The position numbers were made by a program, and so were the translations under genes. This document shows positions 10,678 to 14,488 of a stretch of 24,929 bases of DNA, in pieces; position 1 is the first letter of the stretch; each line of letters begins with the position of its first letter. Source of the stretch: a virus; the IMG/VR virus record IMGVR_UViG_3300048839_001163, positions 1-24,929 of that record, one strand, 5' to 3'. The notes beneath the pieces are model-generated. The model had not been told where the DNA came from, ran no database searches, and saw only the letters and a list, made by a program, of their open reading frames with translations.

Positions 10678-10709
10678 CTTGCATATTAAAAAAAGGTGTT
10701 TTATATTTG
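10678..10709 (+). promoter_or_regulatory. Promoter of the structured-RNA block, CTTG-N20-TATATTTG
   Basis: CTTG (10678-10681) and TATATTTG (10702-10709) have the same 20-base spacing and AAAAAnn lead as the promoter at 4208. A start near 10716 would place the first tRNA-like RNA about 40 bases into the transcript. No protein gene follows for about 1 kb, so it appears dedicated to RNA products. Confidence 0.7.
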
Positions 10710-10755
10710 CAGAGTCTTTGGACAACGTTCTTTTAAGAAATGAATTTTTTTACAT

Positions 10756-10893
10756 GGGGAGATAGCAAAAACAAAAACAAGAAATACTATCTCACTGCTC
10801 TCTTCACAGAGAGAACTCGTAGTGTTTTCAGTAAAGGTAAAGCAATTGAGTTGAAATCAATAGATTACAGGTTCGAGTCCTGTTCTCCCCACA
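10756..10893 (+). ncRNA. tRNA-like RNA (anticodon TGA) with a Y-type stem inserted in the D arm
   Basis: The ends form a perfect 7-bp acceptor stem (GGGGAGA 10756-10762 with TCTCCCC 10884-10890), followed by ACA. The T arm is canonical: ACAGG/CCTGT around TTCGAGT. The anticodon arm is ATTGA/TCAAT around GTTGAAA, giving TGA (serine codons UCA). The variable region is only AGATT, so the long arm that serine tRNAs need is missing. Between TAGC (10763-10766) and TAAAGGTAAAGC (10832-10843) lie about 65 extra bases. They fold as AAAAC/GTTTT, a bulge AAGAAAT, ACTA/TAGT, an internal loop and CTCTCT/AGAGAG with a TCAC loop. This insert is one of four copies of the same module in the block. Either the RNA is a tRNA mimic, or the insert must be removed; if it is, a normal D arm GCTC-AGTAAAGGTA-AAGC results. 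Confidence 0.75.
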
Positions 10894-10929
10894 AAGTTTT
10901 TAAGGGTTTTTCACAAAAACCCTTTATAT

Positions 10930-11002
10930 TGCGGGATGGTAGAAGTGGTATCTCGCTTGGCTCATAACCAAGAGGTCGGGGGTTCGAATCCCTCTCCCGC
11001 TA
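10930..11002 (+). tRNA. tRNA-Met/Ile2 (CAT)
   Basis: The anticodon arm CTTGG-CTCATAA-CCAAG gives anticodon CAT at 10963-10965. The T arm is GGGGG-TTCGAAT-CCCTC and the acceptor GCGGGA/TCCCGC. Position 1 and position 72 are T and T, a mismatch, but the anticodon stem lacks the three G-C pairs of initiators, so an elongator Met or lysidine-type Ile2 tRNA is more likely. The D stem is weak (AGA/TCT with a shifted start). CCA is not encoded: the 3' end is followed by CAAAAAG, which begins the next module. Confidence 0.85.
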
Positions 11003-11003
11003 C

Positions 11004-11083
11004 AAAAAGAAGAACTGATAGTTTTTACAGTAAATTTGACGGTAAATCAGACACTTACAACACAAGACTAACGAATTTCTTCT
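11004..11083 (+). ncRNA. Second copy of the Y-type stem module, 3' of tRNA-Met
   Basis: AAAAA (11004-11008), bulge GAAGA, ACT-GAT-AGT (11014-11022), TTTTA and CAG-TAAA (11028-11034) reproduce the module as a minimal hairpin closed by a GAT triloop. Where the other copies have a C-G pair next to the bulge, this one has A-T. A competing fold also exists: AGAAGAA (11008-11014) with TTCTTCT (11077-11083), stacked on CTGAT (11015-11019) with ATCAG (11046-11050). I see no proper T arm here, so this may be a decayed tRNA-like unit or a two-state RNA. Confidence 0.5.
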
Positions 11084-11677: not shown

Positions 11678-11684
11678 GATTTTT

Positions 11685-11715
11685 TTTGTAAATTGAATTA
11701 TAATTGTTATTATTG
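11685..11715 (+). promoter_or_regulatory. Promoter candidate for the Ro-like gene, TTTG-N19-TATTATTG
   Basis: TTTG (11685-11688) and TATTATTG (11708-11715) fit the Bacteroidetes pattern with one mismatch in the -7 box. It lies between the terminator and the ATG at 11745. Confidence 0.45.
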
Positions 11716-11744
11716 CAGAACGAAATTTTAAACACATATAGATT

Positions 11745-13379
11745 ATGGAAAAATTGGTATTAACACAGAAGATGCTTACAAGCGTTAAGCAGTCATTAAT
11801 TGAAGGTTTAACAATTGCATCAGGTAGCAAAAGTTCAGCAACTTACTACCACAAAAAGGATGAACAGATGAAGGCATTACAGACTCAGATTAGGAGTATG
11901 TATAAACTTTCAAAGGAACTTCCATTAATTATTGCAAGCCAAAAAGGTGCTACCGGAAGATTTGTGTCTGAGGTATTGCTTAACGAATTCAAAGAAACCT
12001 ATAGGGGTGGTGCTTGTAATATAGTTAATCCAATTGACTGGTATGATAATGGATTATCTGATAAGGCAGTTCTTAGTGCGTTGAATAACCTTGCAGGTTC
12101 TGATAATGGTATTACCTATGCGTTACGTCTTTTCATTGATTTGAAAAAATCAAGGATTAACAACGAAAGGTCAAGGAAAATTGTACTCGGCTTCATTTGG
12201 GGTCAGTCAAACCTTGAATTCTATTCATTGAAGTACCGTAACAAACTTGCAAATATTTTGAAGCACACCTATGGAACAAAAAGAACTTCAATTCTGCTTT
12301 CAATTGCACAGAAGTACGTTACTTATGGTAACAACCTTCTTATTGGAACTGAAAAGGAAATGGGTATTGCAAATGATTTGCTTTTGAAATACTTTAACGG
12401 TGACACAACTCGTGCATTTAAGTTATTGTTATTCATCTTCAAAAGAGATACTGGTATTGACTACAGTGAATTCAGTATTTTAAATGAATATCAGAAGGCA
12501 AAAACTGACATCACCAATGTTCAGAATGTACCGGAAGAAGTATTGCTCGGTTTAATTTCTTCTGTAACTCACCCACAGTACCACAGTATGTGGGCAACTG
12601 CTGTTCAGAGAGAAGCAACAAAGGCTTTGGTTCGTAAGAATGTTAAGGTAACTTCGGTTAACCAGCAGGTTCGTCAGACCAAAAGTACTGCGAAGTTGGG
12701 TGTTGAAAAGCATGTTGAACTTGAAAAAGCAACTGACTTCATGGCACTTTACAAGACAGGTTATGAAAATGGTTTCACACCTGAATTGAATGTTGCAATT
12801 AGTAAACTTGCTGAAAAGAAAAAGATTGCAGGTTTCTTCTACCAGAGTATTGGTATTGTTGTCGATGACAGTGCTTCAATGACTGGTCATAAGGCTGAGT
12901 CAAAGAACACTCCAAGGGCAATTGCTGATTTCACTGCAAAGGTATTGGGTAGGTCAGCAGATGTTGCAACATTTGTTAAGACTCGTGACGAAATTACTGA
13001 CTTGGCAAGTTCATTCATTGAATTGCTTAAATCAGAAAATACTGCACGTCCTTATGATGCGATTTTCATCTTAACTGATGGTTATGAAAATGCTTACGAT
13101 GGTCTAACCAACGAAGTTATTTCAATCTGGCAAGCAGAATCTGGTAGGAGCATTCCGATTTTCCAGATTTCACCAATCACCAGTGCTGAAATGGGTGCTA
13201 ATGTTCGTAAATTGGGTTCGGGTGTTGTCACAATGGCAATCAATAATCCAGTTGCACTTCAGCCACAGATTAACGCAAGGTTATTGGAAATCGATACCCC
13301 AAGGTGGCTTGAAAATCAGGTTCGTGCTTTAGAAGCTGCACCTGTTAAGAGGTCAAATAAAATTAGTGTTAACGCTTAA
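11745..13379 (+). CDS. Ro60/Rsr-like RNA-binding protein (TROVE + VWA)
   Basis: At 544 residues it matches the usual length of Ro60 (about 530-540). Residues 1 to about 350 are almost wholly helical, as expected for the TROVE HEAT-repeat ring, with a TYYHKKDEQ segment near the N-terminus. A von Willebrand A domain begins at about 365: the metal site is D374-x-S376-x-S378 in VVDDSASM, close to the DVSASM of animal Ro60, and the later IFILTDGYENAYDG supplies the conserved Asp. Ro60 proteins form rings that bind Y RNAs on the outside and misfolded RNA ends in the hole; in Deinococcus a Y RNA tethers Ro to PNPase. The Y-like RNA array directly upstream strongly supports this call. The TROVE half is diverged, so another VWA ATPase-partner family remains possible. 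It is cotranscribed with the next gene (11-base gap). Confidence 0.7.
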   Translation: MEKLVLTQKMLTSVKQSLIEGLTIASGSKSSATYYHKKDEQMKALQTQIRSMYKLSKELPLIIASQKGATGRFVSEVLLNEFKETYRGGACNIVNPIDWYDNGLSDKAVLSALNNLAGSDNGITYALRLFIDLKKSRINNERSRKIVLGFIWGQSNLEFYSLKYRNKLANILKHTYGTKRTSILLSIAQKYVTYGNNLLIGTEKEMGIANDLLLKYFNGDTTRAFKLLLFIFKRDTGIDYSEFSILNEYQKAKTDITNVQNVPEEVLLGLISSVTHPQYHSMWATAVQREATKALVRKNVKVTSVNQQVRQTKSTAKLGVEKHVELEKATDFMALYKTGYENGFTPELNVAISKLAEKKKIAGFFYQSIGIVVDDSASMTGHKAESKNTPRAIADFTAKVLGRSADVATFVKTRDEITDLASSFIELLKSENTARPYDAIFILTDGYENAYDGLTNEVISIWQAESGRSIPIFQISPITSAEMGANVRKLGSGVVTMAINNPVALQPQINARLLEIDTPRWLENQVRALEAAPVKRSNKISVNA

Positions 13380-13390
13380 AAATTAAAAAC

Positions 13391-14488
13391 ATGAATACAA
13401 GAGATTTCACAGAATTACTTAAAGGTTGCCGTCCTGTCAAGGATAGTGAAGGTAACATTATCGTTCAGTCAATTATGAACATGCAAATCGTGTGTTTAAC
13501 AACTGACAAAGAATTCTCATTGGACGAGCGTTTTGCTAATCCTTTGACTTCATTGACTGCTGGTAACAGTTCATATGGTCAAATCAGTTTCACCAATAAA
13601 GAGAATAAGGAAGTTATTCTTCCTGCTCAGATGGCTGTTATGACAAAACAGAGTGCTCAGAACCACGGTATGGTGAAGGCAGGTTATGTTGAACCTAAAG
13701 CACAAACTACATATCATGATGCTGGTTGTGTACAGGGTGGACAGACTGGACACTTCCGTGGTACTCAGGAATTCCGTATGATTCCAGTAACCATGCGTGA
13801 AATGTTATTCGATGCCGTTGGTCAAACATCAGGTCACGGTAACATCTATCCTGCTATTCAGAAGTTGGGACAGGATACTCAGTGTAATTCCGGTAATTAC
13901 TTGGACGTTTACTTTAATAAGTATGACAAGAAACTCGAACAGTTCATTGCACACTTCGAACGTCCAAAAAATCTTATCGGTATTGTTGTGTTGATTGATG
14001 GTGAAATTGTCGCAGTCGATAAATTTCCTTCATTCACATACGCTGAACAGGTTTGGGATTTGATGATTCGTGATTGTTACGGTGCACTTGCAATTATCAG
14101 CGAGTTAAAGAATAGGACTTCAATGAATGTTTTCACCGAAACATACAATGAAATGAAGAAAAGTCATCAGGATAATATCATTGATTTGCTTGAAAAATCT
14201 TTGAAGAAAGTAAAGCAGACCATGACCGCAAGCGTGCATGAAAAGATTCAGGAACTTCTTGAACTTACATTCAATGCAACTGCAGATACTGAAGGACAGT
14301 CAACTTCAAGAACTGCACCAAAGTCTTTTGTTCTTAAAACAGAAGGGTACGTTGGTCAGGTAATTACTGAAAACGAATTTAACCACTTAGTAAGTGTTGT
14401 TAAACGTGACAGGTTCGACCCAAATGCACTTCGTGAGGTAAATGAACTCAGGAAGAAAGCAAGAAAACAAGAAAGATTTAGTCTTTAA
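13391..14488 (+). CDS. ARPP-1 / DUF6569-like protein
   Basis: This 365-residue protein follows the conserved layout of the DUF6569 (ARPP-1) family as I know it. A beta stretch with N(K)ENKEVILPA (about 69-79) leads to KQSAQNHGMV (86-95, matching the family's GAKQNR segment) and DAGCVQGGQTGHFRG (110-124, matching the PVSCVEQGRW segment). A GQTSGHGNIYPAIQKLG helix (144-160) follows, and then LIGIVVLIDGEIVAVDKFPSFTYAEQVWDLMIRDCYGALA (195-234, matching the family's 'GAV..i.G.v.g.elF.....f..lw.kllrsYa..al'). The biochemical role of the family is not settled; it has been tied by genome context to ADP-ribose/NAD and conflict systems. The 11-base gap and lack of a terminator pair it with the Ro-like gene. 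An extra C-terminal ~120 residues are helical and charged. Confidence 0.65.
   Translation: MNTRDFTELLKGCRPVKDSEGNIIVQSIMNMQIVCLTTDKEFSLDERFANPLTSLTAGNSSYGQISFTNKENKEVILPAQMAVMTKQSAQNHGMVKAGYVEPKAQTTYHDAGCVQGGQTGHFRGTQEFRMIPVTMREMLFDAVGQTSGHGNIYPAIQKLGQDTQCNSGNYLDVYFNKYDKKLEQFIAHFERPKNLIGIVVLIDGEIVAVDKFPSFTYAEQVWDLMIRDCYGALAIISELKNRTSMNVFTETYNEMKKSHQDNIIDLLEKSLKKVKQTMTASVHEKIQELLELTFNATADTEGQSTSRTAPKSFVLKTEGYVGQVITENEFNHLVSVVKRDRFDPNALREVNELRKKARKQERFSL

Follow-up and report, generated by a model that had tools for sequence, protein, structure and literature searches.

We identified an operon encoding a TROVE+VWA-like protein of 544 aa and an ARPP-1 protein, preceded by an array of structured RNAs, in a 24,929-nt (24.9-kb) fragment of the virus record IMGVR_UViG_3300048839_001163; this whole stretch is referred to as the window. 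Such a protein, encoded together with ARPP-1 beside structured RNAs, occurs in bacteria as well as in a clade of jumbo phages and one distant jumbo phage. A single bulged-stem module is common to the RNAs, most types of which also have a tRNA-like domain. We consider it probable (roughly 70%) that the system is a divergent ribonucleoprotein (RNP) of the Ro60-Y RNA type, wherein the module would be the site of the Ro protein and the tRNA-like domains would act as recruiting or decoy handles with no role in decoding. The operon and the module-bearing RNAs of the window are as follows.

11745 to 13379, plus strand: 544-aa divergent Ro60-like protein, with alpha-helical repeats and a VWA domain with intact D-x-S-x-S and TDG (AlphaFold2 and Foldseek; 61 phage loci)
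13391 to 14488, plus strand: 365-aa ARPP-1 protein with invariant Cys113 and Gln115 (PF20208, 57.6 bits, cut-off 27, E 1.6e-15)
10756 to 10891, plus strand: RNA type I, a tRNA-like body (acceptor GGGGAGA/TCTCCCC plus anticodon and T arms) whose D-loop holds the module (Rfam tRNA, 29.4 bits over 10830-10883)
10783 to 10834, plus strand: module copy 1, in permuted order, AATACTA...CTCTCT and then AGAGAG-AACTCG-TAGTGTT-TTCAGTAA (pairing test)
11008 to 11083, plus strand: RNA type III, module copy 2, a plain hairpin (pairing test)
11150 to 11289, plus strand: RNA type IV, a circularly permuted tRNA (in the order T arm, acceptor hairpin, D and anticodon arms) that is closed by module copy 3 (alignment and pairing)
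11499 to 11591, plus strand: RNA type V, module copy 4, whose loop contains a GC-rich hairpin; the last RNA of the array (pairing test)

The AlphaFold2 model of the 544-aa protein (pLDDT 74) retrieved 12 matches at E <= 0.001 in a Foldseek search of the PDB, all of which are Ro60/TROVE proteins (human, frog, D. radiodurans Rsr and Thermus phage phiLo); the next match followed at E 0.018. Likewise, the AlphaFold model of a relative with 27-29% identity, from the jumbo phage LR756500 (pLDDT 65), gave 8 matches at E <= 0.001, again all Ro60/TROVE. A TROVE-ring plus VWA fold was thus found for two distant members, at the level of the fold only and with moderate TM-scores. The VWA residues D374, S376, S378, T418 and D445 are invariant in 19 phage and bacterial sequences, so that the Ro-like proteins hold the DxSxS...T...D pattern of a metal-ion-dependent adhesion site (MIDAS), of which we infer T418 to be the Thr. 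In a structure search of a viral library, a TROVE-annotated protein was the sixth match, and most of the better matches are unnamed. NCBIfam, PADLOC and PHROGs gave no function for either the Ro-like or the ARPP-1 protein.

The module consists of a lower helix, AACNNN opposite an 8-nt strand (a 6x8 internal loop), a 7-bp upper helix and UWCAGUAA. An explicit pairing test places the AAC of the four window copies at 10814, 11013, 11156 and 11504; in all four, the partner strand lies exactly 8 nt from the lower helix. The module recurs across 61 related jumbo-phage contigs, whose arrays were scanned for AAC-N5/6-GTKTT-UWCAGTA and then tested for a partner strand. A strong partner strand was found for 71% of 165 distinct motif copies in the relatives versus 14% in dinucleotide shuffles, and the length of the internal loop peaks at 8 nt (97/153) where the controls are flat; the pairing is therefore not due to chance. 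Moreover, position 7 of the 8-nt strand, which is not part of the search pattern, is a U in all 94 good modules. A short AACTG/CAGT pairing, first read by eye, was rejected because T to G changes break it.

Defined by the offset between the motif and its partner strand, the RNAs fall into five types, in which the module is fused to tRNA-like bodies in three topologies: inserted in the D-loop (type I), prolonging the acceptor end (type II), or closing a circularly permuted tRNA (type IV). Types III and V carry no tRNA mimic. The window array comprises types I, III, IV and V together with an initiator-like tRNA; type II is not among them. Compensatory changes support the alignments of type I (29 sequences; 19 of 31 pairs), type II (23 sequences; 13 of 25 pairs) and type IV (36 sequences; 25 of 37 pairs). 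For type IV, 98.2% of the cells are paired versus 80.5% after shuffling, and the covariation score is 0.455 versus 0.139 for shuffled alignments and <=0.10 when slid. As in Y RNAs, types II-V have a stem formed from the 5' and 3' parts with a bulge or internal loop, as judged from pairing and covariation, and type I holds this stem inside the D-loop. The circularly permuted tRNA-like domain of Y RNAs is seen in type IV; the other types are unpermuted.

The anticodon positions vary widely. Among 23 type II sequences there are 13 different triplets, and among 36 type IV sequences 14; in both they drift between phages and include stop-reading triplets, and U33 is missing in 13/36 type IV RNAs. 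The acceptor stem of type IV is closed by a loop, which measures only a few nt in some phages. These features are difficult to reconcile with the possibility that phage translation uses these RNAs as genuine tRNAs, the module being a maturation or stability element and the Ro-like and ARPP-1 proteins a tRNA maturation or repair factor. We regard that possibility as unlikely, although it would agree with the position of the bacterial operon at the end of tRNA arrays (see below), with the conservation of an initiator-like tRNA within the phage array, and with type I, where acceptor ends are free, some have an encoded CCA, and the anticodon is UGA in 20/29. Because this triplet is kept, a decoding role appears less firmly excluded for type I. 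The initiator-like tRNA itself keeps its CAU loop in 54/61 related arrays, and its CCA is not encoded. The varying anticodons and closed acceptor ends favour mimicry over translation; they do not choose between a decoy and a recruiting function.

The scan of viral contigs with the 544-aa protein yielded 61 loci at 59-100% identity; the contigs reach 365 kb in length. ARPP-1 follows the Ro-like gene in 51/51 phage loci with enough sequence, directly in 44 and after one small insert in 7, and the helicase gene lies upstream in 52/54. A DUF6569-like (ARPP-1) partner had been noted earlier, in a first-pass annotation of the window sequence; this neighbourhood survey supports it and shows that it is conserved. 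PF20208 scores of 57.6 bits in the window, 88.5 in LR756500 and 109-118 in bacteria all exceed the gathering cut-off. The C113 and Q115 residues are invariant and may correspond to the conserved Cys and Gln meant in PMC9503650.

The 462-kb phage LR756500 and a near-identical IMG/VR contig encode the 27-29% identical Ro-like protein with ARPP-1 directly downstream. A type I covariance model built from the main clade only finds three RNAs in LR756500 (75, 72 and 63 bits). The model also matches ordinary tRNA genes weakly, in the tRNA clusters of bacteria and phages, and such matches below about 40 bits were not counted. The LR756500 RNAs keep AAC, the upper helix and CAG, and the strand opposite AAC is 9 nt, not 8, where scored. 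Their tRNA bodies differ; read by eye, the triplet is GUC in one of them and GUA in a weaker fourth RNA, which has a long variable arm. Type I RNAs of this phage at 86234-86386 and 64393-64557 lie ~20-40 kb from the Ro-like gene, and these two distant RNAs (GUC; GUA with the long variable arm) resemble tRNA-Asp and tRNA-Tyr. One tRNA gene of LR756500 is apparently interrupted by ~100 nt, possibly an intron. In the main clade, a 365-kb phage has at least 18 tRNA genes within 6.5 kb (138000-144500). A DNA-pattern scan of the viral contigs detected no module outside the main clade, all module-positive contigs belonging to it.

The phage Ro alignment gave no matches when bacterial genomes were searched with it, but the ARPP-1 alignment recovered 17 bacterial loci, mostly from Planctomycetes, with some Bacteroidetes metagenome-assembled genomes and others. 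In 17/17, the Ro-like gene, or the part of it remaining on the contig, is directly upstream of ARPP-1 (hmmsearch E 6e-24 to 1e-105), and the operon is also present in the complete chromosomes CP036432 and CP070718. In several of the loci, a tRNA array of 15-24 genes has the operon at its 3' end; in several, the final tRNA-like unit ahead of the Ro-like gene is variable in its anticodon. The module scan found 17 strong copies in 9/16 bacterial loci versus 0.35 expected per shuffle; the same invariant U is present in 12/12, and type II and hairpin forms are visible. The system had been described as phage-borne, which is correct in that phages carry it, but it is not confined to them: bacterial genomes have the same operon and RNA module. 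In one bacterial module RNA the loop contains the stretch GATATGACGGTCCTAAGGTAGCG, which presumably resembles 23S rRNA. In a reverse test, 294 planctomycete-phylum genomes were searched for Ro-like proteins, and ARPP-1 was found beside all 4 strong matches; this set partly overlaps the 17 loci and is only partly independent of them. Three remoter Ro-like homologues from the phylum (496-513 aa) have no ARPP-1 in the stretch examined and no Pfam match.

Several results weigh against assigning the system to the Ro60-Y RNA type. The TM-scores are moderate (0.41 for the first model; <=0.34 for the second, which itself has a pLDDT of only 65), and the global root-mean-square deviation is large. The window protein lacks any Pfam match and does not match TROVE (PF05731) at E up to 10, none of 10 phage records contains a match, and the bacterial relatives are unmatched too. 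Neither phmmer nor hmmsearch finds the Ro60 chains of the PDB by sequence, and hhalign against three Vibrio-phage TROVE proteins found nothing, the profiles being thin. The module matches no Y RNA model of Rfam, with matches considered up to E 10. Additionally, 11/12 phage records lack RtcB, which usually neighbours bacterial rsr, and the remaining one has a sub-threshold match; RNA ligases are encoded in 8/12. Because the TROVE profile and PDB sequence searches fail, the assignment to Ro60 rests on structure and on gene and RNA context: the 544-aa protein is Ro60-like by its predicted fold and a new branch by sequence.

The first-pass annotation had called the protein TROVE/VWA and the RNAs Y-like. 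For the protein, the Ro60-like fold with VWA stood up, and the proposed profile match to TROVE did not, nor was there a sequence match to Ro60 in the PDB. For the RNAs, the proposed covariance search brought up no Y RNA-type family in Rfam, and their retention in related phages is borne out by the module and by compensatory changes across the relatives' arrays. The function that it had suggested, a handling of tRNA or RNA ends in infected cells by decoying host tRNA-cutting defences or by redirecting a host exonuclease, is a conceivable one.

The RNA array of the window forms a unit of its own. The UvsX-like recombinase, 5'-3' exonuclease and DnaB-type helicase genes lie upstream, and between the helicase gene (end 10584) and the 544-aa open reading frame (ORF; start 11745) there is a non-coding kilobase. 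The RNA unit within it (10680-11680) is non-coding and contains the four module copies and the tRNA(CAU). Besides the module RNAs, it comprises the following elements.

10679 to 10709, plus strand: promoter-like sequence, TTG (10679-10681), 20 nt, TATATTTG (10702-10709), which we take to be of the Bacteroidota type (sequence reading; relatives have the same layout)
At 10727, plus strand: boxA-like element GTTCTTTTA after the promoter (sequence reading; same layout in relatives)
10930 to 11003, plus strand: initiator-like tRNA with anticodon CAU, a U1.U72 mismatch and A11-U24 (Rfam, 52.3 bits)
About 11626-11680, plus strand: intrinsic terminator, a hairpin ending in T-runs (sequence reading)

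The earlier picture of an RNA-only transcription unit holds, in that both promoter and terminator are present in the sequence. The pairing test also recovered all four of the bulged-stem modules it had listed, including the two joined to tRNA look-alikes (10756-10891 and 11150-11289); that inventory had not set apart the standard initiator-like tRNA(CAU) at 10930-11003. The RNA block lies directly upstream of the Ro-like gene in the window, as a cis-acting leader controlling that gene would. It is nevertheless highly improbable that the block is such a leader instead of several separate RNAs: a terminator of its own ends the block, the 544-aa ORF likewise has its own promoter-like sequence, other phages have ORFs between array and gene, and LR756500 has further type I RNAs ~20-40 kb away.

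The boxA-like sequence GTTCTTTWA occurs directly 3' of the promoter (10725) and again at 11132 before the later RNAs, a pattern repeated in related arrays. In the 61 loci, the 2.4 kb preceding the Ro-like gene contain 75 copies in total, versus 14 in 537 kb elsewhere (plus strand), which suggests antitermination of a structured transcript. Between RNA types IV and V (11360-11490) is another conserved non-coding block, CACCTAACATTTGA...GGTTAAGAATGGTTTT...GNAGAAGTNC, which recurs in at least 25 distinct arrays and for which we found no convincing structure.

The nearest known systems are bacterial Ro60 (Rsr) with YrlA/Y RNAs, such as D. radiodurans RYPER and Salmonella rsr-yrlBA-rtcBA. They share with the present system a ring-type TROVE+VWA fold, adjacent genes, and basal-stem RNAs with tRNA-like domains, which in type IV are likewise permuted relative to tRNA. 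In contrast to them, the protein described here is invisible to the TROVE profile and its module is unrecognised by Rfam, each locus has several RNAs in at least three tRNA topologies, the partner is ARPP-1 instead of RtcBA, and in bacteria the operon comes at the end of tRNA arrays. Already known are Ro60 in jumbo phages (PMC7824862) and phage pir03 (PMC7765460), a phage Ro60 structure (Thermus phage phiLo, 9l5y), phage Y RNAs (cited in PMC12282133) and the tRNA mimicry of bacterial Y RNAs. These phages likewise encode a Ro-like protein, and Listeria phage CKA15_055 has a suspected Rsr with highly transcribed non-coding RNAs, the suspected Y RNAs, upstream (PMC12282133).

A pairing scan of phages pir03, sm033 and BONAISHI found no module; the neighbouring genes there are annotated only as hypothetical, and tblastn of these records with both phage ARPP-1 proteins finds no ARPP-1, the ARPP-1 profile not having been scanned. 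A pattern scan found no module in the first 50 kb of Listeria phage A511 or in the examined regions of Vibrio TROVE phages. In A511, gp57 (23733-25253), the presumed homologue of the CKA15_055 protein, matches DUF2828/DUF7788, another Ro-like candidate family, and has RtcB and an RNA ligase in its neighbourhood.

The ARPP-1 of ADP-ribosylglycohydrolase-centred systems has the same Pfam domain with a conserved Cys and Gln, but its partners in PMC9503650 are ARG, HIRAN, WYL and a deacetylase, with TROVE unmentioned, and its partner here is the Ro-like protein. No Pfam match to an ADP-ribosylglycohydrolase or rhodanese-phosphatase neighbour was found among the 13 main ORFs of the window that were scanned. 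Phages and bacterial genomes can contain dense clusters of tRNA genes, described as tRNA array units (e.g. PMC5966550); a Ro-like/ARPP-1 operon with module RNAs at their 3' end is unmentioned in the abstracts and passages compared. Our literature search found no report of this Ro branch, of its ARPP-1 partner or of a tie to bacterial tRNA arrays, nor of an array that combines several fusion topologies; the key Y RNA papers Chen 2014, Sim and Wolin 2018 and Wang 2018 were outside the comparison, so that the novelty of the RNA forms is only partly checked.

How might such an RNP work? The basal stem of Y RNAs is the part bound by Ro60/Rsr (PMC8394870, PMC11277228), and by this analogy and their co-occurrence the module would be the binding site of the Ro-like protein. 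The nearest tested precedent is the bacterial Y RNA that tethers Rsr to PNPase via its tRNA-like domain (PMC8394870, PMC7790460). The tRNA-like domains may accordingly be seen as interchangeable handles, not used for decoding, that would either bring tRNA-binding proteins to the Ro ring or engage them as decoys; candidates are a host exonuclease, a tRNA-processing enzyme and an anticodon nuclease.

Two narrower versions of this scheme appear rather doubtful to us, in similar measure. In the first, the system would recruit PNPase as D. radiodurans RYPER does, its tRNA-like domain tethering the host enzyme to the Ro ring for the degradation of structured RNA. Its parts are those of Rsr and YrlA, namely a ring protein, a basal stem and a permuted tRNA-like domain (PMC8394870, PMC11472068), but neither several attachment topologies nor an ARPP-1 partner are described for RYPER in the literature compared. 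In the second, the RNAs would serve in counter-defence only, as tRNA mimics baiting host anticodon nucleases, with the Ro-like protein merely stabilising them. An arms race would be expected to produce the variety and drift of the anticodons, the decoy idea has been raised for YrlA by Hughes et al. (PMC7790460), and the distribution in bacteria is patchy (4 strong matches in 294 planctomycete-phylum genomes); however, bacterial chromosomes carry the operon too, and types III and V would offer no bait.

Returning to the broader Ro60-Y RNA reading, the RNP might during infection steer or block nucleases acting on tRNA or structured RNA, with ARPP-1, through its Cys and Gln, processing a ribose, ADP-ribose or RNA-end product in the same pathway. 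ARPP-1, in which a Cys and a Gln are conserved, has been proposed to act on ribose moieties (PMC9503650). This proposal for infection is tentative, and we would put its odds below even.

Taken together, our data define a Ro60 branch that profile searches have missed, with a constant partner, ARPP-1, and a recognisable RNA module, in which one tRNA-mimic logic appears in three topologies, a natural circular permutation included. Both what Y RNAs recruit via their tRNA-like domain and what ARPP-1 does become open to direct testing. It is conceivable, though we hold it no more firmly than the proposal for infection, that this is an ancient mobile tRNA-guarding RNP of bacteria and giant phages, whose Ro60 ring would display changing tRNA mimics to catch or redirect nucleases and damaged tRNAs while ARPP-1 would treat RNA ends or ADP-ribose marks. 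The tie to tRNA arrays provides a candidate maintenance or defence partner for those puzzling clusters.

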